Assembly (NCBI RefSeq): GCF_018143015.1
Contig: NC_054752.1
Coordinates: forward strand, 6,559,216-6,623,215
Source: Lytechinus variegatus
Lineage: Eukaryota > Echinodermata > Echinoidea > Temnopleuroida > Toxopneustidae
Length of the DNA: 64,000 nt
Reading direction: 5' to 3'
The position numbers and the translations under genes are program-made. The notes under the pieces were generated by a model, which searched no databases, had not been told where the DNA came from, and saw only the letters and a program-made list of their open reading frames with translations. Positions 12 through 63,985 of this stretch are shown here, one piece after another (the first letter of the stretch is position 1; every line of letters begins with the position of its first letter).

Positions 12-238
12 CATACACTCTAAAAACAAATCAGTCAAAAATGACTAGTTAATAGGGTCAGCTGGGAGCAACTGTTATTCTAGTCATATTTGACTATTTT
101 CTAGTCGTATTTTACTAGAACATAGTTATTTCTGACTAGAATATACGTCAGAAATGTGATTATCAGGATTGTCATATCAGTTGCACCCAGCTGACTACTG
201 GTCTAGTCAATTTGACTGATTTGTTTTAAGAGTGTATG
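12..238. mobile_element. Short inverted-repeat element (MITE), CTAGTCA keyword
   Basis: The two ends are inverted copies: CATACACTCTAAAAACAAAT on the left matches the reverse complement of the right end (ATTTGTTTTAAGAGTGTATG), and the match continues inward through GTCAGCTGGG. The interior repeats CTAGTCA or its complement TGACTAG many times. No coding capacity. This looks like a non-autonomous DNA transposon; the family was not identified. No clear target-site duplication was found. Confidence 0.75.
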
Positions 239-2864
239 GGATAAGATTCTTGTACTTCAAAAAGCAGTGAGTTATGCTTAAACATACATGCAATCTTCTC
301 CCAGATGGTCTTATAACCTATAGAAATAGCAGTGCGTCCCAGAAAAAGGAAACCGGGATTTCCATGTGCTTTTTTCTTCAAAGGCAAATACGCTATATTT
401 CATTTACATAATCTTTATAATTCAATTATACCTCTTTATTTTGATACCTAACATGAGACGAACACTTAACGCATTAATGAGCAAGAAGAGTTTGAAATTT
501 TAATGTAAAAACGGTTGCTCAGAAAAAAAAATGGGACAAGATTTGTTCGAGATACGACGACCGTGCTTATTCGACGATTGGCTCATAAGCATTTCTATTT
601 GGGGGGGGGGGTTAAAATTCTCTTAATGTTCTCTGAAATGAAAGTGGATTCAGATTCACAGGTGAGTTTCTGCACAAGTAGTTGCCTGAATATTTATTGT
701 TTGTAATATGCCATGCGTGAACGATTTGCTTAGCTATTGGTTTCAAATTCGAGATGAGATTCCACTCTTGCCAAGAGTATCAAATTTATAGCAAAAAACA
801 TATTATATAATTGTGAAATCTATCTCTTAAAACGGTTCTCTTTTTTGCGGGACGTACTGTATATGAACTTTATTCTGAATACTATTCGAGGGATATATAT
901 CATGGATGCGTTGAGTTTCATTTTATTGTATACACCATTCACGTTGTACACATAAACTTGTTCAATATCTTAAAATCGTAATGTATATAAGATTCATTTT
1001 TATTCTCATGATTGAGATGATCATCTTTTTCAAAGATTTATATTAATTGTATCATTATTCAGTCTAGAATTATGCATATTCAACGATTTTCTTGTATATA
1101 CAATCATACGATTTTACAAAAAATGACATCTTAAAATTTTGAGTACATGTGTTCATTTTGGTGTCCTTTCAATGATTTTTACTATCATAAAGAAGGAATC
1201 AAACTCCATGAATAATTAGCGAACGAGAGAAGAGAATTTGCTGCAAAGTGGGGGAGGGAAAGGGGTGAAAAAAAAACGAAAGAGGATGGAATAAAGAAAG
1301 AGAAATTGAGGAGGGGCAAAAAGGATGGATAGATGAGTAAAGAGTGCTGAAGAGAGGGAGAGAGAGGGGGTTGAGAAGGAAGAGAAATGCTAATATGAAA
1401 TAAAAAGGAAACACTTGTGTAATGAATCAAGGGTTCTCCCCCAATTCCCCGGTCTCACAAAGAAATGCGAATAGACCAGTAGACGTCTTAAGTGTAGAAG
1501 ACTTCGAGAAGCTAAGTACAGGCTTTTTTGTTGATTTGTCTTTTAAATGGGTATTGAAGTAAAGTCAGCTTGGTTGCCACCTTGACAACCTTAAGCATTT
1601 CTTTTTCTTTGCATAACCGCGTAAACATCTAATTATCATGTACAATATGATATGTAATATGCAATCAATTTTACACCAGAAAGTCTGAAAATCTGAAAAC
1701 AAAAATAAATGTAATACCATTTTCTAAAGGCTCCTGTGACAAAAATGTATCCATGTAGGACACTATCAAGGAGGACTTCATCAAGGACACTTTCTCTTAT
1801 CTAACCCCCTTTTCCACTTTTCCACCCCTTTTATTCCATCTTCTCTCCATCTTACTCCTCCTTTAATCTCCTCCCCTCCTTTTCTTCTGTCGTCCTTTCA
1901 CCCTCTTATATTCCTCCTCCTTTCATGTCTTCCCCTTCTCTTCTTTCACCCCTTTCATCCCCTGTCTCTCCATCTTCCTCCTCCTTTCATCTCCTCCTCC
2001 TCTCCATCCACCCCTTTCAACCTCTCATCTCTCCATTATTCTCCTCCTTTCATCTCTTTCCCTCCTTTTCTTCTTTCATCCTTTCACCCCTCTTATCTTA
2101 CCCCCTCCTTTCATGTCTTCCCCTTCTCTTCTTCCACCCCTTTCATCCCCTCTTCTCTCCCTCTTCCTCCTCCTTTCATCTCCTGCCCTTGTTTTGGCCC
2201 TTTCTTGTTCATATCCAATCATCTAAGCGCCAGACTGCATGCAATCAATCTTCTCACAACCAATCAGAACCAATTGACCATCCTTCAATTCGTCCAAACC
2301 TGATTAATCTATATAACATGAATTGAACAAATGAACATGATGTTCAAAAGAGGGCAGAATTTATCCATCCAAGGAAGGTAACGATCTTAAATTTCCTAAA
2401 GCATCCCGTTTGTGGGTCTTTAATTTGAAAAAAAAGTGTTAATATTCAAAATAAAACGAATCCCCCAATTTCAGATATGAATATGCATCTTAATTTGTAT
2501 TAACTTGACATGTTTGACAAAGCGAGAAAATGGGAGGGGGGTACTTTAATTTTGTCCGGTGTTTTTTTTTTTCAATGTTAATTTTTATACAGAATCGCTC
2601 CCAGGGACAAGATTGTCTGTATTCTTTGATAAAAACAGGAGTCGTTGGAGAGAAATTAATTTTTATGATTATTTAAAACATTAAAATTTTTATGAAATTA
2701 ACTTTTTAAGCTATGAAATCCATAAAGCTCCTTTCTACTAGTATGCAAAACATACGCTTCCCTAATTTTAAAATTAGTTTAGTTTAGTGAGACAGTCCCT
2801 GTCCAGTTGGCTGCATCTCCCTGTAGTGCGGTTCCTTCATCCCCTCCCCATCCTATTTACCTCT
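239..2864. other. Intergenic, no gene seen; purine- and pyrimidine-rich tracts
   Basis: AT-rich sequence with no believable exon. It contains a G-run at 601-610, a GA-rich strand at about 1200-1440, and a strongly pyrimidine-biased block at about 1795-2200 made of degenerate CTCCTTTCATCTCC units. The open frames here are produced by these low-complexity tracts and are not read as genes. Confidence 0.6.
1795..2205. repeat. Pyrimidine-rich degenerate minisatellite
   Basis: About 400 bp that is almost only C and T on the plus strand, with a repeated theme of CTCCTCCTTTCATCTC and CCCCTTTCATCCCCT. Copies are imperfect and the period varies. Homopurine/homopyrimidine tracts of this kind can form triplex DNA; that role is not shown here. 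Confidence 0.8.
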
Positions 2865-3369
2865 TAAAGGGGAAGTTCACCCTGAAGAAAAGTTTGTTGT
2901 AAAAATAGCAGAAAAAATAATAAAAAATATTGGTGAAGGTTTGAGGAAAATCCGTTAAAGATTAAGAAAGTTATTAGAATTCAAAGTTTTGGATTTGTGA
3001 CGTCATATGCGAGCAGCATTCCTACATAGCGAATGGTAAAAAATCAATGAATTTCAAATTTTGTACGGTTCCTGATAACTTTATTTTGTTTTCTATTTAT
3101 GATCGGGTGTGAAATGATTTGTCTATTGATATACAAAAGGCACAGTAAAAACCATTTTCAATTTTCTGAGAAAATGACATTTCATATATTTTTTACCATT
3201 CGCTTTGTAGGAATGCTGCTCGCATATGACGTCACAAATTCAAAACTTTGAATTCTAATAACTTTCTTAATCATTGAAGGATTTTCCTCAAACCTTCACC
3301 AATATTTTTTAATATTTTTTCTGCTATTTTTACAACAAACTTTTCTTCAGGGTGAACTTCCCCTTTAAA
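2865..3369. mobile_element. Fold-back MITE, ~505 bp, long near-perfect arms
   Basis: The left arm starts TAAAGGGGAAGTTCACCCTG and the right arm ends with its complement, CAGGGTGAACTTCCCCTTTA. The arms stay nearly identical for about 175 bp, through a shared TGACGTCATATGCGAGCAGC segment, leaving a spacer of about 150 bp. The high arm identity suggests recent activity or arm homogenisation. No coding capacity. Confidence 0.9.
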
Positions 3370-9506: not shown

Positions 9507-9924
9507 AAAGGCCTGGGGGGTGTTTCACAAAGATTTAAGCATGACTTAAATCGCACTTAAATGCCGACGCGTACATGATATGCAAAGCGCGATCTTATTG
9601 ATAGATACGCATTAGTGCGCGTCCTCATGACACGATCTGACCAATGCGGTCAAGCCTTTCATACCGTACGCAACTCGGTATTTAAGTGCGACTCTAAGTC
9701 ATACTTAAATCTTTGTGAAACACCCCCCTGGTCACACCGCCCGAGCGTTGTTGGAGCTGTCGTGGAGCGGAGAGAAAAAAATCATCACCGCTCGCTACTG
9801 TTCACCATTTTAGATTTCGATTGTTTTGGGGTTTTTTCGATTTTTTCCCCCAGGTTTGTGAGCGAAATTCGACCCTCTCTCCCTACCGCTCCAACAACGC
9901 TCGGGCGGTGTGACCAGGCCTTAA
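9507..9924. mobile_element. GGCCTGGTCACACC MITE, copy 1, interrupted
   Basis: The left end AAAGGCCTGG is separated from its continuation TCACACCGCCCGAGCGTTG by a 210-bp insertion. The right end is CGGTGTGACCAGGCCTTAA, the complement of the rejoined left end. The interior has GAGCGGAGAG and GCGAAATTCGACCCTCT, as in copy 2. Without the insertion this element is about 200 bp. Confidence 0.85.
9517..9726. mobile_element. GGGGTGTTTCAC MITE inserted in copy 1
   Basis: Starts GGGGTGTTTCACAAAGATTT and ends with the complement AAATCTTTGTGAAACACCCC. It is flanked on both sides by CCTGG (9512-9516 and 9727-9731), a perfect 5-bp target-site duplication. Removing the element and one duplicate restores the GGCCTGGTCACACC end of the host MITE, which confirms the boundaries. 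Confidence 0.9.
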
Positions 9925-9932: not shown

Positions 9933-10142
9933 TAAAGGCATGGTCACACCGCCCGAGCGTTGTTGGAGCGGTCGTGGAGCGGAGAGTAAAAAATCATCAC
10001 CGCTCGCTACCGTTCACCATTTTCGATTTCGATTGTTTTTTTTATGTTTTCGATTTTTTCCCCCAATTTTGAAAGCGAAATTCGACCCTCTTTCCCTATC
10101 GCTCCACGACCGCTCCAACGACCCTGTGACCAGGCCTTTATC
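9933..10142. mobile_element. GGCCTGGTCACACC MITE, copy 2
   Basis: Begins TAAAGGCATGGTCACACCGC and ends GACCAGGCCTTTA. The body is closely similar to copy 1, about 10 bp away and in the same orientation. It is not interrupted. The two copies are a tandem or near-tandem pair. Confidence 0.85.
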
Positions 10143-14012: not shown

Positions 14013-14978
14013 GTTCGGAGAGCTTGCTGTCTTGTAAATATTATGTGTAATTTATAAAGCTAGGGTTACACCAAAACCGAATTCTCCCGAATGAATTCGG
14101 AATGATTCTGCCCGAATATGGTCCGATTCGGAACCTATTCGCCTCTGATTCGCGGAACTCCCCGAATAGAGACGAATGGATCCGGAATAGGTCACGATTC
14201 AGCGCAGAAACGCAAAAAATAGACCAGTTCCGAGTTACTTCATGGGCGAGTTCGGTCAAGTTAATAACCTTTCATTTTTTTTCATTATGATAGGTAGATT
14301 TCATAGCAAAATATAATACAAGCATGCCTTACATAGCAGGATGCAGAAATTGCATAGACCAGGCGACTAGAATAGCACACCAATGAACACTCCTTTAAGG
14401 TAGTTGCATCTCTACTTTAAATGTATTAACATCTACTTGGCCAACTGTGAAATATACCAGTCGCTAATGAGTATTATTTTGTTTTGTTTTGTTTTTGTAG
14501 ATCTAATGAAAAACACGATTCAAAAGAATATATGAATAATCAAGACATCAAAGTTGGTGCTTATCTTATTGAGCATTAAACAGTCAGACTGCAGGTCCCA
14601 AGAAAGTGGCTTCTTTCGGTAGGTCCATGGTGATATTCATGACTTGAGTTGTTTTGCATATGTAATGAGCTTGATGCGGACCAAACACCTCTTTTCATTC
14701 GGTCATTGCTGCTCTAATTGTGCATCGAATTTCATGAATTTGGTACCATTGTAAAGAAGAAGAATCATTCTTTCAGGTCATGTGTTTGGATTTATTCAAA
14801 GATTTTGTAATATAGGTTAAAATTTTGATCTAAAATATGCTACAAAATAAATATTTTCACCTGACAAAAGCTGCTATTTTCACACTTTATTTATGTTTGA
14901 GCCCAAATGATTTTTATATCATGATAAAGCTGAATATGTATGCTTTGAAATGATATAGGTTTCAAAATAAGAATTGGT

Positions 14979-15272
14979 TTAATCGGGTCAAGATCACACT
15001 TTTCATTTGCCAAGTACATAAAGCAGTTTGAAAACAAGAATACTGCACTCTGATTGGTCAAAGAGACCACCCAGTGGCAAATTCCAACGGTTCCAGTACC
15101 TGGGTTCGTGGGAAGGTCATACTTCCCATGTGGTAATCTCCTCAAATACCCCGCGCCTGTTGTTCTGTGAACCTTATCCAGCCAATCAGGACTCTGGATT
15201 TCATGCAAGTACAGAATTTCAGAAATCTCGTCTTGTACCTTGGTGGGAAAAGTGTGATCTTGACCCGATTAA
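14979..15272. mobile_element. MITE with TTAATCGGGTCAAGATCACA ends
   Basis: Left end TTAATCGGGTCAAGATCACA and right end TGTGATCTTGACCCGATTAA are perfect complements over 20 bp; the weaker match continues through CTTTTC and AAGTAC. About 294 bp, no coding capacity. Confidence 0.85.
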
Positions 15273-15901
15273 AAGATGCCGCATATCAAGAGTGGCATTG
15301 TGAGAAAGTACAGAAGTTCAGCGTTATGGTGATATAGATATCATTGAGGCTCAAAATAAAAAGTTTTGCACAATTTGCAAACGAAAACAGAGGAAGAAAA
15401 TTCATTTTTGAGGCACACTTTCAGGCCAGAAATTTACTTTTTTTAACAAAATATTGTATACAAAATAAATGACCAATATGAAAGAGTAAGAAAAAGAGAA
15501 TAAGAAAATATCACGAATCACGAGATTTTGCAAGGAGGATTCAGCCACGAGATGATTTGGATGAATCTGGCCTTTTTGCTCATTAGCATAGGGACCTGCG
15601 GTCTGACTGTAAATCACCATGTCACTTTAGTACGAATGACCTTCTTCTGACCATGCGCAGAATGGACTCCGAACTGGCTTATTGACGCGAATAAATTTTG
15701 GCCTTCACGAATAAAGCCGAATGCCACCCGACTAGTGGCGAGAATGCCAAAGGTGCCCATAATTGAGCCGAATGTGACCTGATTGCTCCGATTACAGCCA
15801 AATGATGACCCGAAATTCAATGTTGACCCGCCAGTTGGAATGAATATGGCCGTATGCGCCGAGCTCGGACCATTACGCCCCGAATGATACGATAATTTAT
15901 A

Positions 15902-17459
15902 CAGTGCGTATCCAAAAAAAAAGTTTACACTTTGAAAACCCATGGGAATTAAAAAATATACAACATGTGGGTAAATGTTTACATATAATCTTGGGTTTGG
16001 GTCTCATCTATCCAAGAAAGTAAAAGTTTTGGCAGAATGTTGCACTTGAGTGAGCACTGTCCATTTTTGTAAAGCTCGCAGAAATCTGTTTGCGGATAAA
16101 TGCTTGTTTTCACGCGAATTCAAACTTACCCTGCGAAACATATCACATATACATTTCCCTTGCACTTTTAGTTAGTTGAAATAAAACGGATACATTCAAG
16201 CGTTTTGTAACAATTTTGCCACCCAAATTGAAATTTGAACATTAGTATAAGCACAACCTTTACCCTTTTTCATGTTTTTGTGCCAGCTGGATCTGAGGAC
16301 ATAACTGAATCTGAACAAAAGTTTATATCAGACATCTCCAGCACTCCTTCACAAAGTTTTTATCCTTTAAAGTTGGTTTACATTTCAATTATCATTTAAT
16401 ACTTCTCCACCATTTTCCTAAGCTTGACAATGATTAAAAGATAAAAATCAAGCCTAAGCAATTTCATGGTAATCACAGCTGAGTGTAAAGCAAATATCTT
16501 TTCGATGGCCTCGGTGTGTGGGGAAGTGTGGTGGGGCGCAATGCACTCTTCGAAGTGTTTTGGGCAAAGAAACCAGTTTAAAAAGGTAAAATATATCTCA
16601 AAATCAATTTCACGAGCTAAATTTCATGATTAAGGTTCGCATAACTATTTCAAGGCTCTGCGCAAATCATTTTACACTAGCTTTTCAAAACTAAGTGGTG
16701 CTCACTCAAGCGGAAATATTTTTCGACAGTTATATCGTCATTAGCTTAAATGGATCTGTACCAATGTTAAAGGATAAGCCCACCCCAACAAAAAGTTGAT
16801 TTAAATAAAAAGAGAAAAAGACAACAAGCATATTACTGAAAATTTCATCAAAATCGGATATAAAATAAGAAAGTAATGACATTTTAAAGTTTCGCTTCAT
16901 TTCACAAAACAGTTTTATGCACATCCATGGTCGGTAGGCAAATGAGGAGACGGATGATGTCATCCATCACTCACTATTTCTTTTGTATATCATTATATGA
17001 AATACGAAATATTCTCATTTTCTCCTCATTGTAAAGTGAAAGAACAATTAATTCATCCATGAACATGTAGAATTAGCATGGTTTGATACTATATGGTTCA
17101 CTTAAGTTGGTCCTTATTGTTAAATCTGTAGAAAAATGAAATATTGTATAATTCTTACAATATAAAACAAATGAAATAGTGAGTGAGGGACATCATCGAA
17201 AATCTCATTGGCATGACACTGAATTGTGCATATCACTCTTTTGTGAAATATAAGCGAAAATTTAAAATGTCATTACTTTCTTATTTCACATCCAATTTTG
17301 ATGATATTTGCAGCGTTGCGCTACTTTCATTTTCTCTATTCATTCAAATCAACGTTGTTCTAGGGTGGATTTGACCTATAAAATGTGGAAAATCTTCGGG
17401 ATAATGTATGATTTTACAGGATTTTTTTCTAAGTGTAAACTTTCTTTTGATACGCACTG
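15902..17459. mobile_element. Tc1/mariner-type non-autonomous element
   Basis: Ends are CAGTGCGTATCC at the left and GATACGCACTG at the right, each followed inward by a purine run and GTTTACACTT or its complement. TA flanks both sides (15900-15901 and 17460-17461), the target duplication expected of the Tc1/mariner superfamily. Length is 1558 bp but no DDE transposase frame is seen; a fold-back at 16766-17381 makes up much of it. A related single end (ACAGTGTGTATAAAA) and interior sequence occur at about 46114-46280. Confidence 0.8.
16766..17381. mobile_element. Fold-back MITE nested in mariner-type element
   Basis: Left arm begins TTAAAGGATAAGCCCACCCC and contains TTTCATCAAAATCGGATATA; right arm contains CATCCAATTTTGATGATATT and ends GGGTGGATTTGACCTATAA. 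Arms are diverged. Partial relatives occur at about 21670-21920 and 50098-50290, giving a family of at least three. Confidence 0.75.
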
Positions 17460-17939
17460 TATAGGTTCGAATCTGCCCAGAATACTCCGAATGCCTCCCT
17501 TAATCCATCTGAATGCCATTCGAATGCATCCAGGCGCGTACGCAAGGGGGGGGGGTTCGGGGGTTCAACCCCCCCCCTTTCGTTTCCTTTTTTTTTTGCT
17601 TGTCTCCCCAGAGGTCGGTCTGGTCAAGGAGATATCGGGCAAGCGCCTGATAACTCCTTGGTCTGGTTACGGACAGTTCCCCTACCCAATAATGTATATG
17701 ACAGCAATAATGAACAGAATCTCATGTTTCCGACGAAAAATACAGAAAAAATTTGCGCTCGCTTAGCGCGCTCCAATTTATTATATCTTTTATTTCCGCA
17801 TGTCGCCGACATGATCACGGTATCGCCATTAACAAGGCCATACATGATTATCATGATGTATACTTATGAATACAAGTGAACCAAGACAAAGACATACGTT
17901 TTCTTACAAAATATGTTTTACCAATATGAAAACAAAAAT

Positions 17940-18394
17940 GACGGAGAACGCTAAAATGTCGGTTAGCTCGCTCCGCTCGCTCGTAATAATTTATGAAATT
18001 CCATTAGTATCTAGTCTCCTGTTCAAGGCCGTATTATGAGTGTTACGAATAGAAGGACATGTAGCATCGACTAATACTTGATTTACTAACAAACTATTGA
18101 CAAGAAATGTATGTTTTGACGGGAAAACGCGAAAATTTCGGCTCGCTCACTCCGCTCGCTCGTAATCATTTATGAAATTTCTTAAGTTTCTAGTCTCTTG
18201 ATCAAGGCCATATCATGAGACTTACGAGCAGAAGGACATGTATCATCAACTAATATGTAATCATTACCAACAAGCTATTGAGAAGAATTGTATGTTTTGA
18301 CGGAAAAACGCAAACATTTCGGCTCGCTTGCTCCGCTCGCTCGTAATTATTCATGACATTTATCAAGTTTCTAGTGTTCTGATCAAGGCCATAT
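17940..18394. repeat. ~180-bp tandem repeat inside hAT-like element
   Basis: The landmark CTCCGCTCGCTCGTAAT recurs at about 17971, 18150 and 18331, a period near 180 bp. Shared sequence in each unit includes TATGTTTTGACGG, GAAGGACATGTA and GATCAAGGCC. The last unit is split by the insertion at 18395 and resumes at 19802, extending to about 19920. Confidence 0.85.
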
Positions 18395-19801
18395 CCAGGC
18401 GCGTAGCCAGGGGGCGGTCGCCCCCCAAAAAAAGTCCCCAAAAAGAAAAAAAAAGAAGGGAAAAAGGAGAGGAGAAAAGGAAAAGGGAAGGAAGGAAAGG
18501 GAAGAAAGGTAGCTTTGTGTTTTTTCTTTTTATACTTTATTTTTTCTCAAAAGAGAAACTCCTTCACTCTTCTTGCTTTAAATTCATATATGAATTTTGC
18601 TTCCGCGCTGCACGCGGTTAAATGACAATTTAGAAGTTCTCCATTGTTCCCCACCTTTTCTCTAACCCTGTTTTTCCACCTCAGCTATGTGCTTCTTGCC
18701 AGTTAAAGTTAAAATTGTATACATTAGGGCATGAATTTGAGTAAGGTTAGGCCGAAGTAAATGTATGAAGTTATCTTTTTTTTTCAATTGATCGCGCAAC
18801 TTCTGGTCTGGTCGGCTCCGAGCGGGTAAAATCTTTATATCAGTTTCTGCCGTCACCTCCATAAAGTCAGCTTCTCCCGCTTTTCAGCTCATTACTATAA
18901 ACAACCATAATTTGGGGGCAAACAGGTTCCTAATTTAAAAAGAGGAAGGTATGGAATTCGTGTCGTATTAAATAAAAAAGTACAATATTTTTTTTTATCA
19001 AATTGTATTAAACTTCATGTCATTTCCCTGTATACATTCATCTCCTGTCCTGTTTTGCGCCCTCAGTTTGAAATTTTGAATGACACTTAAGTTTCTTTAT
19101 ATTCAAAATGAAGCGCTTCAGGATAAGTCAAAATAAATAATCATCCTTTATTATATAGATAGATAATTTCAATAAATCACAGAAGTTTCAACTTTATGCG
19201 CAATGTTTTCCTTGTAATGAAGTTCAATAATCTTAGAAAATCAATTGAATTAGAGACGATTGGGTATTAGAGATATCTACATTTGATGAAACGTCCGCCC
19301 TTTGAAATTTCAGAGTTTCACTGCTCATCGCGGGGAGGAATATCTTCCTCTACCAATCTTCTCCTCTGTTTTGCGAGTTAAAAATATGCACTGATGCTAA
19401 ATTGTTTGTAATCAAATCTGATCTTTCCAAAGAAAGTTTCAATATATCTTTGAGAATACCCTTTTCATGGGACCCTTTTTATGGCAAGAAAAATTGATAA
19501 ATCACTTTAGCTTCCGCGCTTCGCGCGGAGTTATTATCATTTTAATTTCCTCCATTGTATACCTCTTTTGTGCGTTTACAATCACTTTTGAAAACAAGGT
19601 TCAAAATCGCAATATAGTCAACCGAATTGGAGGTACTAGAGACAAGAGAAACGGCTCCTTTTCATTTTAATTTATGAAACACTAAAAGCTTCCCTCCCTG
19701 CACCCACCCCCTAGGGAGCGCGCTTCGCGCGCTCTGTAAGTGTTGGCACGCTTCGCGTGCATTTACCGCCCCCTCCAAAATGAAATCCTGGCTACGCGGT
19801 T
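18395..19801. mobile_element. Second hAT-like element, nested, 8-bp TSD
   Basis: Starts CCAGGCGCGTAGCCAGG; the right end complemented reads AACCGCGTAGCCAGG. Flanked by GGCCATAT at 18387-18394 and 19802-19809, a perfect 8-bp duplication. Interior has a GA-rich block (about 18440-18510) and several TTCCGCGC..CGCGCGG palindromes. Its termini resemble those of the outer element, so both may use the same transposase. Confidence 0.92.
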
Positions 19802-20301
19802 GGCCATATCATGAGTGCTACGATCCAAAGGACATGTAGCATCGACTATGATTCCAACAAACTATTGACAAAAAGGTTATGTTTTCAACGCAAAAACGAG
19901 AACATTTCTGCTCGCTCGCGGGTCATGACCGCACTGTTACATACCCATCCCCACTTAAATGTTATTGTCTTATTTGCAGATCCTCACCCCCCCCCCCCCC
20001 CGCTCATCACTTTTTAGAGACTGGGCGGGAGATTTAAAAAAAAATCAGCTCGAAACCCCCCCCCCCTTTCAAAAATCCTGCGTACGCGCCTGAATGCATC
20101 CCAAATGTGGCCCGAATGAAATTTGTTGTGGTCATATTCGGAAGTAATTTGAAGTGTATTCGGCTGGTTTTGAATATTTCAAAACGAGCCGAATCCCTCC
20201 CGAATTTTCTCGCGGAGGGAGAACGGAATACCCCCGAAACCACCCGAATGAGTGTTCGGTTGGATTCGCGCTGATTCGGTTCCGATGTAGCCTTAGCTTT
20301 A

Positions 20302-24867: not shown

Positions 24868-25033
24868 GGGGAGCGTTTCATAAAATGACTTGTCGGACGT
24901 TTTATCCGACAAGTCTTGTTTTATCCGACAGTTACTATTGTAACAGTGCTTCTCAACCAATCAGAATCCAGGAAAGTTGTCAGATCTGTCAACTTGTCGG
25001 ACGAAAATATTGATGAAACATCCCCCCCCAGGT
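24868..25033. mobile_element. MITE with TTTCATAAAATGACTTGTCG end
   Basis: Left GGGGAGCGTTTCATAAA and right TTGATGAAACATCCCCC are imperfect inverted repeats; internal CTTGTCGGACG is present near both ends. It includes a CCAATCAGAATCCAGG segment similar to other short elements in the window. A partial relative may be at about 58948-59060. Confidence 0.7.
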
Positions 25034-37397: not shown

Positions 37398-37555
37398 CAG
37401 GGTCCAGAGGCCCGTTGCAGAAAAAGTTGCAATCAATCGCAGCTCTAAATATCATGCGCAACTTGATTTTCAACCAATCAACAGAGCGCGTTTGGGACTT
37501 GGGTTTTATTTTTTGGCTTACGTTTAAACGCAACTCTTTCTGCAATGGACCCCAG
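37398..37555. mobile_element. MITE with GGCCCGTTGCAGAAAAAGTT end
   Basis: Left GGCCCGTTGCAGAAAAAGTT and right AACTCTTTCTGCAATGGACC are imperfect inverted repeats. About 158 bp, with an internal CCAATCA. It sits directly next to the previous MITE. Confidence 0.8.
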
Positions 37556-45200: not shown

Positions 45201-48200
45201 CTGTACGAATGATGCACATTCAGCCTCTCATTTGCTTGCATTCAAGCAGCTAAGTAGATGTACAAAAGATTATAATTAATTGATTATTTATGAAGTAACC
45301 TACCTGTCAACCCTGAAACCCAATGAAGTAGCAAGTGGAAAATAAATGTAGAGGCTGAAAATATGGACATTGCAGAATTTCCCATATATTAGCCAAAACT
45401 TTTCTTTTTTTTAAATAGGGACACAGTTGCTAATACCCTTTTCATAAACTCATCCTCCAATTAGCCGCCTAAGAGTAATGCGGATAATTCAATAAAATTT
45501 TTCAATAATCGTCATAACTGGACACGCCCCCTGCGATGCGATGGTGTTGGAAAAGAGTGACCTTGTGACCGCACCATGGCAACTATCCGCATTATTTGGA
45601 AATGCATTCATAAAGTCAAAATCTGGTCCCGATGCTGCTATTATGCGGATAATAGCAGCATCAAAATAATGCGGATAACTCTGGTCCTCCTCTGATTTTA
45701 AGACCAAATTATGCTGCTATTAGCCGCATAATTGGGTTTATGAAAGGGGTATAAGTGGCATTGTCTTTAACCACGAATCAGGACAGTAAGCAAATATGAA
45801 GTAGCCCCACACAAAGTTAAAATGGTCTGCCAAGGACCAATCGCAATATCACACAATATTGTGTTAACATCAATATAACATACAGTATATATATATATAA
45901 ATCTGTATGATAGTCCAATGATAAAAGATGAACACAAGAATTTAATTGTTCAACTTACATCCAGGGCTGGGTGTGAGAGGTGAAAGGTTATCATCATTAT
46001 CATCAGGACTGGTTGATGTCCCCGTTCGACCCTGTTCATACACAAAAATGAATGAAACATACCAAATGGTCAGATCTGGCTATTTGCAATACCAACAATG
46101 GGTGACATTATACAGTGTGTATAAAAAAAAAGGTTACACTCAGAAATAACCCTGTAAAATTATATATTTGTAATATCCTGAAACTTTTTTCCACATTTAC
46201 ATTGGTACTGATCTCTTTAAGCAAATGACGATATAACTGTCAAAAAATCTTTCCGCTTGAATGAGCACCACTTACTAGTTATGGTGGTAATGATGGTAGT
46301 AGTGATTTTGTACCTGATTGCTAAGAAAGCATGAATGCTTGTAAGCAAGCAACCAGAGGACCGACGGCTTAAGGTCCTCTCCGAAGGACTTGGTACTGAG
46401 GATTATTGCCTTACCAAAGGGCACTAGCGCACCAAGTGGGAATCGAACCCGGGTCACCGGAATACGAATCCCCTGCTTTACCGACTGAGCTATTGCTATT
46501 GAAAATCTCATAAAAATATTTGGGCAAAAATTGAAAATAGTTCTATGAATGATAGTAGACATTAATCATGAAGAACACATGGATTTGGCTAGAAAGATTG
46601 ATTTGAAAATATTTTTTACCTTTTCAAACTTATTACCTTGCCTAAAAAACCTCATAGAGAGCCACTACCCCCCCCCCCCCCTTCCCCACACACCGAGACC
46701 ATCTCGATGATATCTGCTTTACACAGAGCTGCCATGCACATGAAATGGCTTTGGCTTGATTTTCCTTTTGTTTATCCTTGTCAAGCTCTGGAAAATTGTG
46801 GGGAAATAAGTATTGAATTAAATATGAAATGTAAACCCACCTTAAAGGAATAGTGATGAAACCCCTGTGTGAACCCCCCCCCCCCCCCCGATAGCATGAA
46901 ACTGTTGCCAGTCAGCATTTGCCAGGTTATTATTATTATTTGTTTGGCGTCACCTGTGCCTGGGAGGCGAAAAGCGAACTAAATCACTATGACCCACAGG
47001 TCTCTCCTCCCGATATAACTGATTGGGGGGAATGCAGGTGGACCACTACACCGGGGTTTCCCCCTACTCTTATACGAATAGTGCAATGGGTTCTTAACGT
47101 GCAAAGGTGGTGACTCTCCTCTACACGGGGCCTCCATTTAACATCCTATCCGAGGGACGGAGTGTTTTCCATTGTAACATAGCCTGCATCTATGAAACAT
47201 GGGAGAGACGTTTACACACAACGCACTGGCTTCAGTCATCCGCCCGGGGTGGACTCGAACCCACGATCTTTGGTTCGACGGGCAGACGCGTTACCGACTG
47301 AGCCAACACCGCTCTCTGATGTTCATGATATAGAAAAGTTATTTGACTTACTGCTACTGCTCCTTTAATGGCTTCATACCAGGACTGGCTTGTTGTCTCA
47401 TCTTCACCTTGCACTAGGTATATACCTTGATCAGTAGACAACTATAAGAAGAGAAGATGGCATGAAAAAGAAGGAATTAAATTGAAGGTTGATTAATCTG
47501 TAAACGAAGTAAGGTTCATTAATTAAAAAATGATAAAGGTTCATTATTCCAAAGTTCCAGAGTTCAAAAATGAAATAAGGATTGTACTGTTCACTCGTAT
47601 TAATGATCGTGTAGGTTTCACGGTGCACCTTGTCCTGAAAAGGACCACCAAAACTCGACGTTTGGACAAGTGTGTTTGTGTCGTCTTCAGGAGCATGATG
47701 ATCGTACTAATGATCGTTATTTCATTTTTAAACTATCATACCTTCGGGAACAACAAAACCTATTGCATTGTTGGATTAACAATCCTTCGAAATAACCAAC
47801 CCTGTTGTCTTTTGGATTAATGAACTTCAGAATAATGTCATAAAAGTTAATTTTCAGCCCATTCGACATCTTTGTTTATGCAAATTAGATGATTGGGAAT
47901 AATGCAGGAGTTCAAAATCTCTGGAATAACAGATGTCACCCGATATCTTACCTCAAAGATTAGCTTCTTTCCTGGCGTTCTGCTTCTTGTCCAACCAACC
48001 TCTGTTCTCCATAAGTTCAGGCTCACTTCAGGGTTGCTTGCATCCCGCTGTTATAAATGAGATTAATTTATAATAGTTGTACATTTATACTGCGCAATTT
48101 TTATATGTTTATACTCAAATGCACATTACAATAATGTTATTATTATCATAAATCTGGCTAAAACTGTGCTAGTGACAGGCACACTGGCATATGAGGAATT

Positions 48201-51200
48201 TCTTCCTATTGGGTACTAATTAGGCCCGTTTCGGGTACACGTGTACACGTGTACACGCACGTTCAAGTCAGTGCACGTGTACTAAATTCCATCACCGTGT
48301 ACACGGTAGCATCTGCATAAACAAGCTCACAGCCTCACATTAAATCTTAGTTCTCAGACACTGCACACGTTTTAATTACTAATATGTCAACATATTTCAA
48401 TTAATCCAGAGTGAGTTCACTTCCAAAATCGCCAATTTAATCCACATTCTTTCTGGAGACTCACGTTTTTGTACCACGAAATCGGCACGAAATGGGTCTG
48501 CTCCGGTCTCAAAAGCTCGAAAGCGTTGCTCAATCACACTCAGAGTCAATTTGAGAATCACAAATTGCGATAGCGATCATCGCTACAACTTACGTGTTAT
48601 ACGCTCGCACACAAGCCTACAAACAAACGCTCTTCAAATTGGCAACATAATAATGAAAATTAATCGATAACTTCAGTTACACTTATTCTGCAGTGATCTG
48701 TGCATGCATGTACGGTACAGTATACAAAATGCGCATCCACCGAGCGTCGGCGATAGCTAGGGCCCTGCACTGATTTTCTTTTGCATTCTTTATTAATTTA
48801 ATGCGCTGCTAAGCCGAGTAAACTTTTAATTTGCACCAATTTTTGTGGATTGATACTTCAAACTTCTCAGGTAAGCTTTAAAACCGTGACTTAGGCTATA
48901 TAGACCCCTTTTTATGACATATTGATGCGGGTCCGTGTCGACATGAAAACAGAACTCGCTCTCACAGTGTTTACAACGTGTACACGTGTACACGACCGAA
49001 AAACACGCCGTGTACACGTGCATCTAAAATGGACTTTCAAAACCGGCCTAGTACTCATTCACCTTATCCAGGTTGAGTGGAGAACAATATGGGTAAATTT
49101 CTTGCTAAAGGAAAACACGCAATGGCTGGGAATTAAACCCACGTCCCTCAGACTGAAAGTCAAGAGTCACAACCACTAGACCACAACACCCCTATAGGCA
49201 TAAACTAGTGTTACAAAGGTCAATTTTTTTTAATAGTGAAATTTGATGTACGTTGTATTTAAGAAAGTCCAAATGGATTATTAATGCAAAAACACCAGGA
49301 AGAAAAGAAAAATGAATTATGCAGATTCTGACAAGCTATCTGTGTTTGAAAAATTATCATTTATTAAACCGTCTGGACAGGACAGCATTTACGCTTTTTG
49401 GAGAGTACTTCTTCAAGGTCAAGGTCTAAGGTGAGTAATAAAACACATGTTGGTGCATGGAATGAGATTAAGATGGCGTTTCTGGTCATTTTGTAACTAA
49501 TTTTTTTTTTAAAGCACTACATAATCATTTTTTTCCGGCGCCAACGCAAAAGCAGTGCCCACAGTCTCGCTCTGCTATGCAGGCGAGACAAAATAATACC
49601 TCAAAGTTCTTGTGATCCTTGTAGTATTTGAGTTGTGAACCTGCCAGGACTGCGTACCCAGGCCGACCTTTCTTCTGGCGCCCTCTATCTTTCATCAGCA
49701 TCATCGTCAGCATGCCTTCTTTCTCCCTCACCTCCATATCGTAGGGACTCGGGTTGCCGTAAACACTTATCCTCTGCAAGATGAGCAAAATACGAGTAAA
49801 TATTAGCCTTGTCACTTTAATAGCACAAACATTTTAAAAACACACACAAAAATATACTCATTTATGAAATGAATACATGTGTTAATCTGGGAGCATGCAC
49901 AAAATGTTGGTAATTTGTTTTAAACAAAAAAAAAGTACATGAATGAATAATGATTGTAAAACAGGGTGGTATTTCTAGTACATTGTAAAAAACAAACAAA
50001 ACAAAAAACATACATACATGTATGAAAAATGACTGTAAAACAAAGTGGTATGAATGACTATGTATTTAGAACCACTTTATAAAGTTCATGAGGTTGGTTT
50101 AAAGGACAGGTTCACCCCAACAGAAAAATTATTTGAATAAAAGAAAAATCCAACATGCATAACACTGAAAATTTCATCAAAATCGGATGTAAAATAAGAA
50201 TGTTTGAACATTTTAAAGTTTTGCTCATTTCTTTGATTCAAATCAACCTTTTTTTTCTTTAGATTATAAAAAAATATTAAATTTACAAATGATGTCAAAT
50301 CAATGAAATGGTATACATTCTAATAAAGCCCTGACCTTCCATACATTTTTGTACACAATGATATTCATGCAAATGGGAAATTGAATTGTACAAACTTTCA
50401 ATGAGAAAGGATGCTTAAAGAGCCTTTTGATATACACACAATATCTTGTGCTAAATTCAAACAATTAATTACATGTAGGTAATCACATGTTACCATACTT
50501 AGTTTCACATCATATTTGGTTGTATATTTGGTGGGATGATGAGCACTATTAGAGAATGGTTTCACAACTGACTTGAATCAATAATACTTCAAATACTACA
50601 AACATTAATCGCTAGAGGGTATTCATTTGTCTCGCAATCTACTATGGTCAACAAGGAAATTCGTGATCACTCTCGCAAAAAGTGTTCACTGGCTTTCTAG
50701 GAAATTCGTGATCACTCTCGCAAAAAGTGTTCACTAGCTTACAAGTTCACGAGCTTTCGAGTGCCGCTGCAACTCTTTATCAAGTGACAGAGATTTATCC
50801 GATATCGTACTCTATACTAATCTCCAAGACCGTACGCACCCATGCGAGAACAATAGGTGGGCACTGATCCGTTGTGTGATTGGTCAGGAGTTATGCAAAT
50901 AAGCCGGGGGTATATGCAAATACGCCGTGGGTCGGCAATATGCAAATGAATACCCTCTAGCGATTATTTCAATCCGCAATAATGAACCTATTTAGTACAA
51001 ACATTGCTCATATAAACAAGATATTGTGCACTAATGTACGATACAAGTGCAGTGGTTTTTCTCTTGCAGTTGTAATCGTGACAATTCACATCTTCAGCAT
51101 AAAGTGGATATGAGAATTGCCATAATTATCATTATTACAAAAGAGCAAACGCTGAAATGAGATGATAAAATTGGTTACATACTTCTCCTTTATAGGGAAG

Positions 51201-54200: not shown

Positions 54201-57200
54201 ATCTGCAGTACCTTTAGACAAATTTCCTGTAAGCTATGAAAACTTTAAGTGAAAAACGTAACGGACATGACACTGATAATGGTAAAGAAATCACACAAAT
54301 CTGAAGACAGATTTCTCTAAAATTGATGAATGGCATAAAATTTAACGATGATTTTCTGTTGATTTAAACATTAATCAACTATTCAAAAGTTAAAAGAGAC
54401 CTCTGGGACCTTGTTTGCTTTTAGTAGAGACAGGAAAGATGAATTGTTTAAAAATAGCCACATTTTTACATTTTGAAATTTACTATTCTATTTTTTTGAT
54501 GATGGAAAAAAACTACAAAATTTTATCAATATTGCGATTATTCTATTGGAAATTGGTACTTTATAGATTACTTTTTAAGAAAATTTGACTGCTTAAGTGA
54601 AATCTGAGACTTCATTTTTCCTCTAAAGTGAACATTTTCCATGGAATTGCCCATTAGCATTCACACAAAGACATACTTCAAACTATAACAACATCTCAGA
54701 TTCTGTTGGATACTTTTTGAGCTATGCAGAATAACCTTTACTTCAAACCAATTGGCAAAGTGTCCACATTCTGAACTAGACGTACTTTCAACATCGTCTC
54801 AAAACTTTTTATTTAATTCTCAGCTCTTTCTGTGCGTTGAGCACTCTACAGAGTGGATTTGTTGCTTCATAAGTCACATTTATGAATGCGAATAAAGTAA
54901 ACGGATGTAACTAAAGAGAATTTGAATTTTAATAATGATCAATATTCCCTAGTGGAAAGAATGCAGTGACCCACAGTGTGTTGACAGTGTGGTGTACAAT
55001 GTGATATCACCTTCACACTGTCAACTTTGAGCAGTTCAACAGTGTGAATCCCATATTCACATAGTTGACCATGTGAAAGCGCTGTAAACAATCACACTGT
55101 CGAGGTGTGAAAATACCTGTCACACTGTATGTGAACACACTTTGATCACACTGTGTAACACACTGTCATCACTGTGCATTACACTGTGATCACACTGTGT
55201 AACACAATGTGTAACAATGATCACACTGTGATCACACTGTGTAACACTGTGAACACACTGAACACACTGTGTAACACTGTGTAACACTGAACACACTGGG
55301 AACACACTGTGAACACACTGTGATCACACTGTGTAACACTGAATGCGCTGTGATCACACTATAACACAATGTGTAACACTGAACACACTGTGAATACACT
55401 ATGAAACACAGTGTGATCACAGTGTGTATCACTGTGTTCTTTCCAGCAGGACAATTTGAAAAACTTCTCAACTCATTACTGTTCTATAGAGATGCAAGAA
55501 ATGGTCCTGTAGTACAAAGCTTTAATCATTCATAAGATTTATTAGATTGTGCATTGTGTTAAATGCAATCATACATGAAAATTTATACTACGATTAATAG
55601 CTTAGCTTTGTGTAATGGGGCCCAGATCAATCAGCAGAAACCACTCTTTTTTATTTTAGAAACACTGCATTCAATTCATCAACTGGATTTTGAAAATTAA
55701 AAAAAAAAGTTTATTTGTTTGATAATTCTAAAATTGCAGCCTTTTGACAGTTAAAAACTGATTTGTTTTGAAAAAAACGTCTTGAAAAATGTTGTTACTG
55801 GAATTAACCCTTCTTGCGATTTCATGAACAAGAATATTGTCCTTACAAACCATATGTTTTAATGGCTTTATAACACTTCACTTATCTCTAACCAGAGACT
55901 TTCAGAAAACTCTTCTTTTGAAACAATTTTTAAGAAAATCAACATCGCTGAAAACTTTCTTTTTTTTGCCAGAGGTTGCCATGGTTTTTTATAATCACAT
56001 GTGGCTTTTTCATGCTATCAAGTTGTTAGCAAAGTTGTTGATCAAGGGTTTATCAAAGTAACGCACCAAAATCATCATTACACTCCAAATGTTTGTTTGC
56101 TTTCATCATACATTACACAGCACAACAAGATAGTTCTTAACCACAAACAAATGAGTTAACTCAAACAATCAAAATGAAAAGCAAGATACTTCTTAACCAC
56201 AAACAAATGAATTATTTCAAACAATCAAATGAAAAAACCTTCAAACTCTGGGACTTACATTATTAAATTTTCTCTTAATTTCTTCTTTCTGTGAGAGAGG
56301 AAAGTTCAGAAAATATAGTTAGATTTGTTCCATTATGGTATTGATTAAATGAGATGAAAACAATATATCATCAATCAATATCTGATGAATGTTGTTTAAT
56401 GATCGAGGATGAAAAGTTCACAGAGATGGGCAAATCCACAAAACGGACATGGCATTTCGTTCATTTTCACAAAGCATAGCCCTTTTAAATTTACAGTATT
56501 CAAACAATACTTGCTGTGTTTTATTAGACACCATCTACATTCAGTTACTATACCCAATGGATTACATGTATATGGATTTTCATTGAACAATTTATAGAGG
56601 ATTGGTGACTTGTGATTTTTTTTTTCATTTAATGAAATCATGAAAAGGTTATGTCTATTTCACTCAATGAAAGTCATCAGTGACCAGATCTTTGTAGAAG
56701 TGCATGGCATGATCTTTCAAATGAATATACTGTATGAGGAAACTGGTATCATTGTTGTGAGAGGTATGACTTTCATATTATGATAACAAAAGAATTTATT
56801 TCATGATTAGAAATATATTTAACAATTACAGAAACAACAATATTATTACATTATGATTTGTTAGTGGTCAGGTCTTATCAATGAAGGATATTAATACAGA
56901 TGGTGGATTGGTCCTTGTCGTGCATGCGATCAAACAACTTAAATTCAAACAATTTTATCTTAAAAAAACGCGGATGATATAAAGCTCATGGCAGACATGA
57001 TTCTAAAACCTTGTTCCCACCGTCGAGCAATCTGTTATGAACGCCACAATTGACTTTTCATAGCTGATCACAATAAAATTGAAACCTTTCGACATTTTTT
57101 CAATACAATTTTCACGGCTGATCTGATAAGATCTGATAAGATAGATCACTACGACTGTTTCATGATGAGGACCATGGTTTCAATTATGAAATGAATTGTA

Positions 57201-60200
57201 GCAGTGGGAACTATCAAATAGGTGTAACATTACTATCAAAACTATTCAACACTTAAATTTCATTAGCTTAAAGAGACTGAAACATATCATATATGCATGC
57301 ATTGAAGTAGAATCCTGAATTCAATTGGGGTAAACGCTGACTCTTTGGACAGTATTCTGATTTACAATTTAAACCTAGGTTTAACCCTCGTCTAAACTAG
57401 ATTTTTAAACCACAGTTCCATGGAAAGCTGGGCTTCATAATATTTTGTCCATATTGGTGACGATTGCAATGTATTATTAATCCATTGAAATTAATGATAG
57501 TTTTGTATTTTCAGATTCTTCGCATTTAACAAATCAATTATTTATTGACAACTTTTTGCAAGGGGATAACAATAATTTTTAATTGGTGGAACAAGTTGAC
57601 TACTGGCAATTCATAAATGTGTGGTCAAAGTAACCCAGGTTTCATAATAAATACAGCCATGGCAGTTGGTGGTTTGTGTGTTCAATCAAAATGACATTGA
57701 AACAATTGAGGTTAATGCTGATTTGTTTCAATATGTTAAAGGGATGGTTTGGGTATTTTAATTAAAATGTTAACAGCTTTTAGACAACACAAGGGGTATC
57801 TGCAGTATATATAACGTATCATGGTCCACAGTCCACACAATCCACAAACTTGGCACTCTTGTGTTCTAGATTTTGAAAAAGTCTTGTAAAGAAATGCAGT
57901 AAAGAGCTAAATCCAAATAAGATTTATATAGATTTTTAATCTTCTCTTGGATTCGTCACAATCCTTTTCGATGAAGCTTTTATTTAAACTACGAAATTCA
58001 GAGTGTACTAGTATGAACCGAGCAAAACAAGGGGATTTTTTTTCTTTAAATAGTTGATTCAAACAGGGTAAGAATGTCACAAATTTTGTGGCTTCAAGAG
58101 GATTGAAGAAAGGACTGTTCCAATCATACTCTTGCAATGATCACTGCCAAATCTAAAGGGCACTTATTTCTTGCAAGGAAATGAGCCTGGGTCAAGTTGC
58201 ATAAAAATTAGTTTTGCCATTCAGCAGTGTCTTCCATGGAATCCTTGATTTTGATTGGCTGGTAGGTCGTGTTACCATCAATGTGAGTTACCTTTGGATG
58301 GCAAATTTACTTAGTAACTTTTATGCAAAGTGGCCCTTGGGCCCGTTTCATGAGGGACATGCAACTGTTGAACCTTTGCCAAGATGGCAACTACAGTACC
58401 ACGGTAACCTTGATTTTGATTGGCTGCTGAGCCCTGTTGCCATGGTAGTTGCAAGTCCTTTATGAAACAGGGTCCCTGGTTTTGCTTCAATCCTAGTTTT
58501 CAGTAAGGGGGTACGATGACAAGGGTTTTTCTTAGGGTTTTTTAGTGAATGCATGCATGGAGGTATATATATATACATGTAACTTGGGCATGATAATGGT
58601 CACAGCAAATATACCTTTTTTTCATAATCCCAATCCTGTATGAAAAAAAAAAAAACAGATACATTGTAAATATTTTGGATAAAGAAACAAATAGATGAAC
58701 ATCGGTAAAGTAATATGGCTGGCCGAACCTTAAAAACTATTCTAAATAAGGTTGTGTTCGTTTGCTTTAATTTGAACCAGCTAAATGTAATTCATTTGAA
58801 AAATTAAAAAAAATATATTTGGGGAAAGTTTGAGAGCTGTAACCTGCCAGGCTAAGGTCAGGATAGTAAGTACTATCTATTAAGTCCTTTAGAATGGCAT
58901 AGGGATGCTAGATTTTAGGTTTCATAACAGGATATTTTGTGTAGTCTAAGGAAAGGTTTCACAAAATGTCCGACAATGATATTTAATCATCAGATTAGCT
59001 CTCAGCCAATCAAATGCATGGATTAAAGATGTCACTGACGGCAAACGGCTTCATGAAATACTACACAGTTTTTAAAGATGTTGTGAATAGAGAGGCCCCT
59101 TTTTCCGATCTCGACAGAGGCACCGTTACAAAATTGCAATCCTTGTTAATGTGAACAGGGTCTTTGTTTAAAGTTCTTAATTTCAAGTTTTTTTTCTCAA
59201 GAGGACGTTTGGGTTTCAGTTCTGACTGTACAGAATACAAGAATGGGGAAAGAAGCAAATTACATGTAGACGCCTCATCAATCAAAATCTCTCTGAAAAA
59301 ATTGTCACTTCTGAGCTCTTATTAGTATGTATGCTTCTACCAAAAGTGAAGGATGAAAACCACTAGAAAGTATACCTCTATACTGATGCAAAGTCTTTAA
59401 CGGCCACTGACACAACACACAAAAATATTTCCTGGTTTCATCTTATTTTTTCAGTTTGCATTTCTGTGCAGTCAAAGTGCAGTTGGTTATGATCTAATAC
59501 CCCTTTCATAAACCCAATTATGCGGCTAATAGCAGCATAATTTGGTCGTAAAATCGGAGGAGGACCAGAGTTATCCGCATTATTTTGATGCTGCTATTAT
59601 CCGCATAATAGCAGCATCGGGACCAGATTTTGACTTTATGAATGCATTTCCAAATAATGCGGATAATTGCCATGGTGCGGTCACAAGGTCACCCTTTTCC
59701 AACACCACCGCATCGGAGGGGGCGTGTCCAAGTGTCATGACGATTATCCACCTTTATCAAGACGGGCGCTCGTAAAAATAGTGCGGATTATTTTCGGAGT
59801 TTGTGAACGCAATTATTATTGAATTATCCTAGGCGGCTAATCGGAGGATGGGTTTATGAAAAGGGTATAAATGATAAAAGCAAAAGACTCCCTTATTGTC
59901 ATGACGTAGCCATGATTTCTCACGAGTGATGTAATATTTTATATACAAGCAAATGTTTGTAGCTAATGAATTGCGTTATTTTCAGGATTTTAGGTCAACT
60001 TGGGATTTGTTTACATTTGTAGCATGTTTATATCCCAGAGAACTGTTGCTAAGCTGGCGCCATGAGCGTCTTAGGATGATATGCGTGCTCTACAAATCCA
60101 CAATATCATTATTTATATTATTATTTATTTCGCTATTTGTTTTCCTCCAAATCCTCTCCCTCCCTACATGATCCTACATCCTACACGACTGGTCTGAATT

Positions 60201-62024: not shown

Positions 62025-63480
62025 CTAAATCAAATACTTGCTCCTCCAACAACGGGGTGCATCCAGAAGCGGGAGTCTTTGCCACTTGCCACAGAGCACA
62101 GGTACTAATCCTTGTTGCTTCTCATACAAGCATGGGTATGTTTCCAAGGAATTTTTCAATTTTCAAATTCGATGAGCTGATTTGCTTGATCGCGAAAATG
62201 AATGCAACCGATTTCTGTACAGTTCTCTGTAGAAACTACATGTACATGTAGCTACACATAGTTTGTAGCAGCATTTGAATGGAAAATGCATAGCAATTCC
62301 AGTACGAAACTAGAGAAATTATTTCCTGACATTTCTGAAACTGCTAGTTTTGCACATATACCTGTATAGTCAAGGACTATTCCTGGTAGAATTTGAGGAA
62401 GTATAGAAAATGCAAGAATATGAAAATATTGCTCATTTTGTGTTAGACACAGTGTACGAGCTGAAGTGTTTACATAAAGAATATGATTGTTTTTATCATG
62501 GCTGTGCTCAAATAGATATGTCTATTCACATCAGGAGAGCATGAAGACATCGAGAAATTATTTAGGAAGAAGTACTTTTGTACCTCAAATACTTCATGCA
62601 GAAGCCTTCTTTATAAATAACTACTACTACTATAAATGCAACTGTCAAATATAATCAATGAAGTTAAACTTGGATTGAATTCATATGGAAATTTGCTTTT
62701 TTATACTGGATGTAAAAAATAAAATTCTAATCATTAATTTCACGGATAATTTTAAAGACATATACATGTAGGCATTCAAATGATACATACATGTATAGAA
62801 GTGGGAAATTGGAGATCTGCTAGTACTTCCTGATAATGTCTTTCCTGTTAATACATGGACATACTTCTTCAAGGACCCTTGACAGTGACAATCAATATTT
62901 TATCAAGTTGAGACCCCTGAAAATTGAAATTTACAAATGCCAATATTGCTGTTACCATCATGGTGTACTTAACCCAACTAAAAGGTATGAATAATCACAA
63001 GCATTCAAAAGTAGAATCAAGATTTAAGGCTCATATTCTAAACTCTGGTTTCACGTAGGATGTGGCCTTAATAATCGTTGTAAAACTATATTTAGGTGAG
63101 ATACAAGTCTGACACAGGTCATACATAATTTCAGTTCATAAGTTTATAAGTTTGATAATCAAATTATTAAAGTTGTATATGAGGAGGCTGAAAAAATATT
63201 CCTCCATCATTAAAGCCTGAGAAAAGAGCCCAAAAGGTGCACATACTTTATACGAAACAGGCAGCATTCGCAAGGCTTTATATATTGGACTTCTCAGCAC
63301 TGGATCAAGGATTATAAAATTACCAAACTTAAAGATATATGAGCATTATTCATTAAAAAAAATTGGAAGGGTGAAACAAGACAACTTCCTTGGATTGGCA
63401 ACACTCACCCACCCCCCCCCCTAAAAAAAATCTCTCCCCGAGGAAGAATCCTTTATTATAGGGCCTACATAAAAATTGAT
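62025..63480. other. Upstream intron or flank, no exon seen
   Basis: AT-rich sequence. Upstream RhoGAP exons, if any, were not recognised here. Confidence 0.4.
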
Positions 63481-63484
63481 AAAT

Positions 63485-63985
63485 AGGGGAAGGCGGGGTA
63501 AGTTGTGACAGTTTTTGCTTTTTGCATGTTAGAATTGATATGATTAATAATCTTGTCGAAATAAGTACCTTGCCTTGAAATTTAACTCTTCTGAAATATT
63601 TTCCACCTATATATAACTTTCTATCCCCACACTGAAAGTCATCGTGACCTTTGAAAAAAACGATGTCAAATGGCTCAACTTGCCCCATATATGGGGTAAG
63701 TTTGAGCCACCTTCTGGGGTAAGTTGAGCCACAAAAACTTATGTACAAAATGTATGAAGGGAGAACCAGCATGTCAATTTTTTGTTTAAAGTCTTTTCAT
63801 TTGCTAATTCTCTATAAATACTAACATCCTTTAAAAGGAAAAGAGCAGCCATGTAAATTTACTCCTTTCAGCCAGCATTTCAATCGATTTTTATGGTATG
63901 TTTGTTTTTTAAGATACATTACCATAGGAATTACCATGGCTCAACTTGCCCCATGCTGTTTGGCTCAACTTACCCCAGTCCGAAC
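63485..63985. mobile_element. TGGGGTAAGTTGAGCCA-keyword element
   Basis: Copies in both orientations: GGGGTAAGTTGTGAC at 63495, TGGCTCAACTTGCCCC at about 63671, TGGGGTAAGTTTGAGCCA at about 63692, TGGGGTAAGTTGAGCCA at about 63716, GGCTCAACTTGCCCC at about 63939 and TGGCTCAACTTACCCC at about 63961. The pattern is the same as in the 52-54 kb and 40 kb elements with another keyword. The right border may lie beyond the window. Confidence 0.6.

Follow-up and report, generated by a model that had tools for sequence, protein, structure and literature searches.

Do DNA elements that are each built around their own iterated word belong to one fast-changing transposon superfamily, or did several lineages arrive at the same design? 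The question is raised by a stretch of 64,000 nucleotides of the sea urchin Lytechinus variegatus (assembly GCF_018143015.1, contig NC_054752.1, positions 6,559,216 to 6,623,215), called the window in the following. An initial annotation had listed loci here (A to I) in which a short motif, the keyword, recurs many times in both orientations, and had considered either one superfamily whose binding motif changes quickly or convergent growth by replication slippage or gene conversion. Elements added in this study are labeled T and K, and loci elsewhere in the genome L; the 869,567,369-base assembly (33 contigs) was searched, and all element copies come from this one genome. We favor the reading, with a probability of roughly 0.6, that the keyword loci are mostly non-autonomous cut-and-paste DNA transposons of several lineages, and that the keyword is an iterated putative docking site for a family-specific DNA-binding module. 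What was observed directly are the target duplications of E, G, I and five T elements, ends that are shared between families whose insides mostly are not, and an iterated word in the non-coding DNA of a transposase-bearing element (L100, less clearly L101).

A common end joins families that differ inside

Eleven elements that had not been listed (T1 to T9, T11 and T12) share an end of about 17 nt, GGGCCCGTTTCATAAAG, which typically abuts CAG or CTG (CWG). T1 to T9 were collected by an inverted-repeat scan of the window (the source of T1, T2, T3 and T5), by similarity and by a core-pattern search. A weighted matrix of the terminal sequence (the end matrix, 16 ends) then yielded two further elements in the window, T11 and T12. 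Among the 16 ends, CWG stands at a fixed spacing in 11, compared with a frequency of 0.023 in the window, AAA lies 13 nt from the border in 12, and the first three positions are G with weighted frequencies of 0.81, 0.86 and 0.61.

The duplication CWG is exact in five of the nine T elements with two ends. CTG flanks T1 (9516..9727, word CTTAAAT) and T5 (31274..31429, word TTTTACC), and CAG flanks T3 (43120..43459), T7 (37408..37552) and T12 (24869..25028, TGTCGGA four times); T1, T5 and T12 are NuwaI-like miniature inverted-repeat transposable elements (MITEs), and T3 and T7 are NuwaI-like as well. The flanks of three further NuwaI-like elements are one base off, namely T2 (40586..40856, CAG/AAG), T8 (58190..58336, CTG/TTG) and T9 (58340..58475, TTG/CTG), and T11 (55503..55622), with AAT on the left and CAG on the right, shows no duplication. 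T4 (37136..37404), a NuwaI-like relative of T2, has CTA on the left and CAG on the right. T6 (44569..44727) has CAG at its left end; its right end was not found, and the border given is the limit of its similarity to T2 and T4. The neighbors T4/T7 (37404-37408) and T8/T9 (58336-58340) lie one copy of a 3-bp duplication apart (CAG and TTG, respectively), as if the duplication of one element had served as the insertion site of its neighbor.

For T1 an empty site is available. It lies at 9506-9924 within a terminal repeat of K1 (9509..9921; end AGGCCTGGTCACACC, word TGGAGCG, flanks TAA/TAA by eye), and K1 adjoins its own copy K2 (9936..10137; 87% identical, TGGAGCG four times, flanks TAA/TTA by eye). 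The joined flanks of T1 differ from the K2 end at 3 of 59 positions and match the other end of K1 without interruption at the joint; an uninterrupted K end is thereby restored, which demonstrates the insertion of T1.

Because the T borders had been placed with the duplications in view, blind tests carry more weight. In leave-one-family-out searches with the terminal 18 nt, the CWG families ranked 1-65 of about 128,000 positions (T7, T8 and T9 had been picked with the core pattern, so their rank is not independent) and E ranked 132-414. With the next 30 nt the ranks were 551-109,726, led by the T2-type and T7 families with their common GATTGAT-like words; mostly, this inner zone showed no similarity between families. 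T11, T12 and the sites in a 200-kb sample from 20 places elsewhere in the genome were blind to the matrix. In this sample 29 sites scored at least 15, with CWG at 16 of them, compared with 0.7 on average and at most 3 among the 29 best sites of each of 40 column-permuted matrices. Several of the sites precede words absent from the window and others are relatives of window families, so that they do not amount to 29 independent families. Below its top hits the matrix carried no signal (the 70 best window sites include 54 new ones, of which 2 have CWG).

In their duplication and first bases, the T elements match NuwaI, a group of the PHIS transposons with CWG duplications and terminal inverted repeats (TIRs) that usually start with GGG (Han et al., 2015, PMC4482050; this and the other cited papers were drawn on in part). 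The published NuwaI hosts are 12 bony fish, a beetle, a crustacean, a mollusc and an anthozoan, with echinoderms absent from the list, and the sections of that account used here make no mention of iterated family words. Together with E and B, the unlisted elements look like PHIS (PIF/Harbinger-type) transposons. Shared ends and duplication type combined with differing inner words are what one superfamily with a changing motif would produce; that idea holds for this PHIS-like subset, which consists mostly of unlisted elements, and not for the full list.

Borders and target duplications of the listed elements

E1 (45434..45751), a PHIS-like MITE with the end TACCCYTTTCATAAAC and the keyword ATGCGGATAA/TGCGGCTA, has an inverted second copy, E2 (59498..59867), that is 95.7% identical over 254 bp; both are flanked by the duplication TAA. 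Of 20 genome copies fetched, 19 were readable, and 12 of these had an exact 3-bp duplication (TNA in 11, GAA in one) and six more were one base off. In 2000 rounds of mispaired flanks, exact duplications numbered 4.3 on average and never more than 10. C precedes the target in 9/19 copies and G follows it in 12/19. This resembles the target C-TNA-G of the PHIS group NuwaII, to which the TNA in 11 of the 12 exact duplications corresponds; however, most NuwaII TIRs start with GG (PMC4482050) and E starts with TACCC, and for this reason E was not filed as a NuwaII member.

Element I is present in the window with its left part (63486..64000; end GGGGAAGGCGGGGTAAGTTG, duplication TA). It had been placed at 63485-63985, which captured this left part of an element of 862-864 bp that extends beyond the end of the window. 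Among the 40 of 1557 candidates that were scored, the full-length rows are 98-100% identical. Eight loci were examined, and the seven complete copies measure 854-865 bp, have the same 20-nt end on both sides, contain the word GGGGYAAGTT 7-8 times and are flanked by TA on both sides (7/7). The end pattern was matched in 19 of 20 further loci, all with TA at the left flank (19/19). At L017 one copy of I is inserted in another, and the uninserted sequence has a single TA.

The 2.6-kb element G, with the end GGKCAATTCCA, eight copies of a GCGTAACGGACATGAC-type word and ATTA on both sides, reaches from 52070 to 54652, which corrects the previous borders of 52081-54273; 33 genome rows besides the window's own cover the whole query (52071-54651). 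A 6-bp duplication CATTAG was read at first and was replaced by one of 4 bp from ten other copies, which is exact in 7/10 and one base off in 3/10. Since the targets are much alike (ATAT-like), mispaired flanks also reach 7 at most, with a mean of 3.0. The duplications of E, G and I differ, being TNA in E, TA in I and 4 bp in G, and their ends are unrelated. These differences refute a single superfamily for all listed loci.

The other listed elements were analyzed within the window. B (14058..20298; end AGCTAGGGTTACACC, flanks TAA/TTA by eye) is filled by nested elements and has CCGAAT in its core; 19 of the 25 window copies of this word lie in B. A stack of nested inverted repeats extends over 11884-20301, partly in B, and includes 12493-13076, 14580-15610 (holding 14978-15273) and 15915-17448 (holding 16836-17313). 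F (48222..49050) carries CGTGTACACG near both ends and is flanked by the 8-bp sequences GTACTAAT/GTACTCAT, which agree at 7/8 bases, or by TA. In the position of its words and in a duplication that may be 8 bp long, F recalls hAT elements with subterminal repeats such as Hermes (PMC10368747); TA flanks fit too, and a firm assignment of F to hAT was dropped. For F and the remaining elements the borders are provisional. C1 (32805..33125) and its relative C2 (41613..42392; 78% over 226 bp) have inverted arms of degenerate units of about 16 bp of the ACCATTTGGTCTAAT type; the keyword originally given, TTTGGTCTAAT, has zero exact occurrences in the window. Galileo/Foldback elements, too, have long inverted arms, composed of repeats in which transposase binding sites lie (PMC3688188); the likeness of C to them is one of arm structure only. 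A (16..234) is a palindromic MITE with TA or AT flanks, D (39877..40388) has the inverted end GGGGGWCCTAARGCTGCGC, and H (54953..55445) consists of ACACTGTG-type units repeated in tandem, with an inverted end on either side.

Keyword iteration beyond mirrored arms

Because an inverted-repeat element gives each word twice for free, an arm-preserving null was used, in which shuffles retain the arm pairing; each locus was tested with three word settings and 100 shuffles for each setting. Among nine listed loci, E1, E2, C1, C2, F, H and I reached p≤0.03 in at least one of the three settings, the p values being uncorrected across settings and multiple tests. As controls, six other inverted-repeat elements were tested, of which one (50606-50966) reached p 0.03 in one setting. 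Its end is TAATCGCTAGAGGGTATTCATTTG, the words TTTGCAT and CTCGCAA recur in it to some extent, and it may be another keyword element. Four of ten T and K elements tested passed (T1, T5, K2 and T12).

G and the core of B passed simpler shuffle tests. In G a 12-mer occurs in eight exact copies, whereas none of 100 shuffles gave more than 2; when two mismatches were tolerated, the excess was small (8 vs at most 7 in 20 shuffles), and the halves taken alone were not significant. Over the entire 6.2 kb of B the word excess was not significant; three core parts, chosen by us around the nested elements, beat all 300 shuffles (6 v 5, 7 v 5 and 7 v 6). An unbiased word scan, whose low-complexity filter discards words such as that of F, returned 12 loci. 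Six of them are C1, E1, E2, G, H and I; of the remaining six, four are tandem or simple repeats.

The words of E, G and I are dispersed in both orientations between unrelated sequence, and both orientations occur in T12 as well. The keyword observation is largely real and partly confirmed, being neither universal nor always spread through the element; in F the word lies near the two ends. A keyword search in viral and prokaryote collections returned 0, 0, 1 and 10 stretches with a single match each, by our estimate the chance level for a 17-mer, and a literature search with the keyword letters retrieved one unrelated pig study only.

Transposase-bearing copies

A Pfam scan of ten open reading frames (ORFs) of the window detected no DDE domain. 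In the genome the PHIS transposase domain PF13359 (DDE_Tnp_4) has at least 150 scored matches among 458 candidates. Among those listed, 27 rows share a score of 116.4 bits and 24 of these have a 340-aa frame, so that the L100-type family to which this score belongs has likely been active recently in this sea urchin. The matches fall into eight length groups, and from each group one locus of 4.5 kb was fetched. L100 and L101 encode transposases with PF13359 (E 4.9e-33 and 2.5e-32) and are flanked by the 3-bp sequence TAA, read by eye in one copy each; both features agree with PIF/Harbinger elements, whose 3-bp duplication is TWA (PMC9710019, PMC9179366). In five other loci no element ends were seen.

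L100 has the inverted end GCCTAGGTCACATAGCCCGGCCG. Its left side contains CCGGCCGA six times and its right side CACCGGCC four times (shuffles ≤3 for both), and its coding DNA is not enriched (2, shuffles ≤3). The words CGGCCGATG and CGGCCGGTG occur 7 and 8 times in L100, 0 and 1 times in the 200-kb sample, and are absent from L101, L102 and the window. The ends of L101, AGCCCSTTTCACAATTGGCGCC, are close to the T end, and CGTTGTA occurs six times on its left side (shuffles ≤3). Iterated words are clearly present in the non-coding ends of L100 and weakly in those of L101. Compared by eye, the K and B ends resemble those of L100 and L102 (AGGCMTGGTCACACC, AGCTAGGGTTACACC). TA had been taken as the duplication of K and B and was replaced by the reading TAA after L100 and L101 were seen, which leaves one mismatch each for K2 and B.

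Keywords as putative docking sites

According to the reading that we favor, each keyword would be a docking site for a DNA-binding module of the family's transposition machinery. Families of the PHIS-like lineages have the outermost ~17 nt in common, presumably since the DDE transposase cuts there, and the zone just inside turns over, giving each family its own word. With words in both orientations, as in several families, many protein copies could gather on a short element. Keyword turnover would then track changes in a DNA-binding domain carried either by the transposase or by a partner protein. The Myb-like partner in Harbinger3_DR recognizes a subterminal motif of 9 bp, and neither of the two proteins is dispensable (PMC9710019); for the mobility of mPing internal as well as terminal sequence matters (PMC9921582). 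L100 and L101 appear to differ from PIF/Harbinger in the Myb-like partner: no Myb/SANT domain was found in two extra ORFs of at least 120 aa in or overlapping them, nor in one ORF beside L101, smaller ORFs being unscanned. The keyword may therefore be read by the N-terminal part of the transposase itself or by a protein provided in trans. The L100 protein would be expected to read CCGGCCGA, and the L101 protein a CGTTGTACGA-type site.

Apart from this missing partner gene, several results weigh against docking sites as a general explanation. A and D, two of the nine listed loci tested, did not pass the arm-preserving null (best p 0.06 and 0.69). T2, T3, T7, T8, T9 and T11 showed no iteration beyond mirrored arms, and the controls include TIR elements of the window that have no keyword. 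The right side of L101 was not above shuffles and its coding control exceeded its own shuffles at k8 (4 v 3), which makes L101 a weaker case than L100; L102 was not above shuffles at all. Finally, the eight fetched loci yielded no transposase gene in an element flanked by CWG or TNA.

Part of these results would be expected if the arrays were by-products, with slippage, gene conversion and mirrored arms multiplying short words that no protein reads. Slippage, as initially suggested, is evident in H, which is a plain tandem array, A is mostly explained by its palindrome, and six of ten T and K elements lack iteration beyond the arms. Against this, the words of E, G and I are dispersed in both orientations between unrelated sequence, and those of L100 sit in its non-coding ends, its coding part showing no enrichment; we regard by-products as an unlikely general account. 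A protein may also read the words for another purpose. In the VANDAL elements of Arabidopsis, a family-specific short motif is iterated in non-coding DNA, differs between related families and changes fast, and is bound by VANC proteins with a known role in anti-silencing (PMC5735166); here, too, the words could recruit an anti-silencing or other regulatory protein instead of a transposition complex. Yet VANDAL belongs to another superfamily and its motifs have one orientation, whereas the words described here have both and also occur in elements of 150-370 bp that contain no gene to de-repress. We regard a regulatory role as less probable still than by-products. Least probable by far is one superfamily with a fast-changing binding motif for all listed loci, which is true within the PHIS-like subset and conflicts with the duplications and ends of E, I and G. 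Overall, the initial interpretation is partly supported.

Of the systems considered, VANDAL/VANC is the closest precedent for a family-specific, fast-changing iterated word, and Galileo for arms composed of binding sites. A coral MITE study describes the opposite pattern, conserved insides and less conserved ends (PMC2872659). Going beyond docking sites as such, we tentatively propose, at less than even odds, that sea-urchin PHIS elements are modular: a conserved catalytic end of ~17 nt would be combined with an exchangeable keyword zone, which would serve each family as its address and be read by a fast-evolving DNA-binding module. New families would swap the address and retain the cut site, so that many keyword families could coexist in a genome. 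This addresses the question how related transposase families whose cut sites look alike achieve specificity. A constant end with a changing inner word is testable, as the word is legible in the sequence and can be paired with the DNA-binding module that its family carries. As T11, T12 and the 29 sites of the 200-kb sample illustrate, the end matrix is in addition a practical annotation tool.

Other features of the window

At 2864-3368 lies a MITE with 188-bp arms that are 96% complementary, TTAA flanks and no iterated word. A reverse-transcriptase fragment at 25767-26418 has a weak RVT_1 match below the curated cut-off and is Penelope-like by eye. A unit of ~150 bp that holds AGTACGAGCC occurs in four diverged copies at 61263-61710, and 103-bp units are arranged in tandem at 37786-38360 (~5.6 copies). 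The minus strand encodes a receptor at 29509-30594; over 88% of its length, this protein shares 97% identity with a galanin receptor 2b-like protein of Lytechinus pictus.

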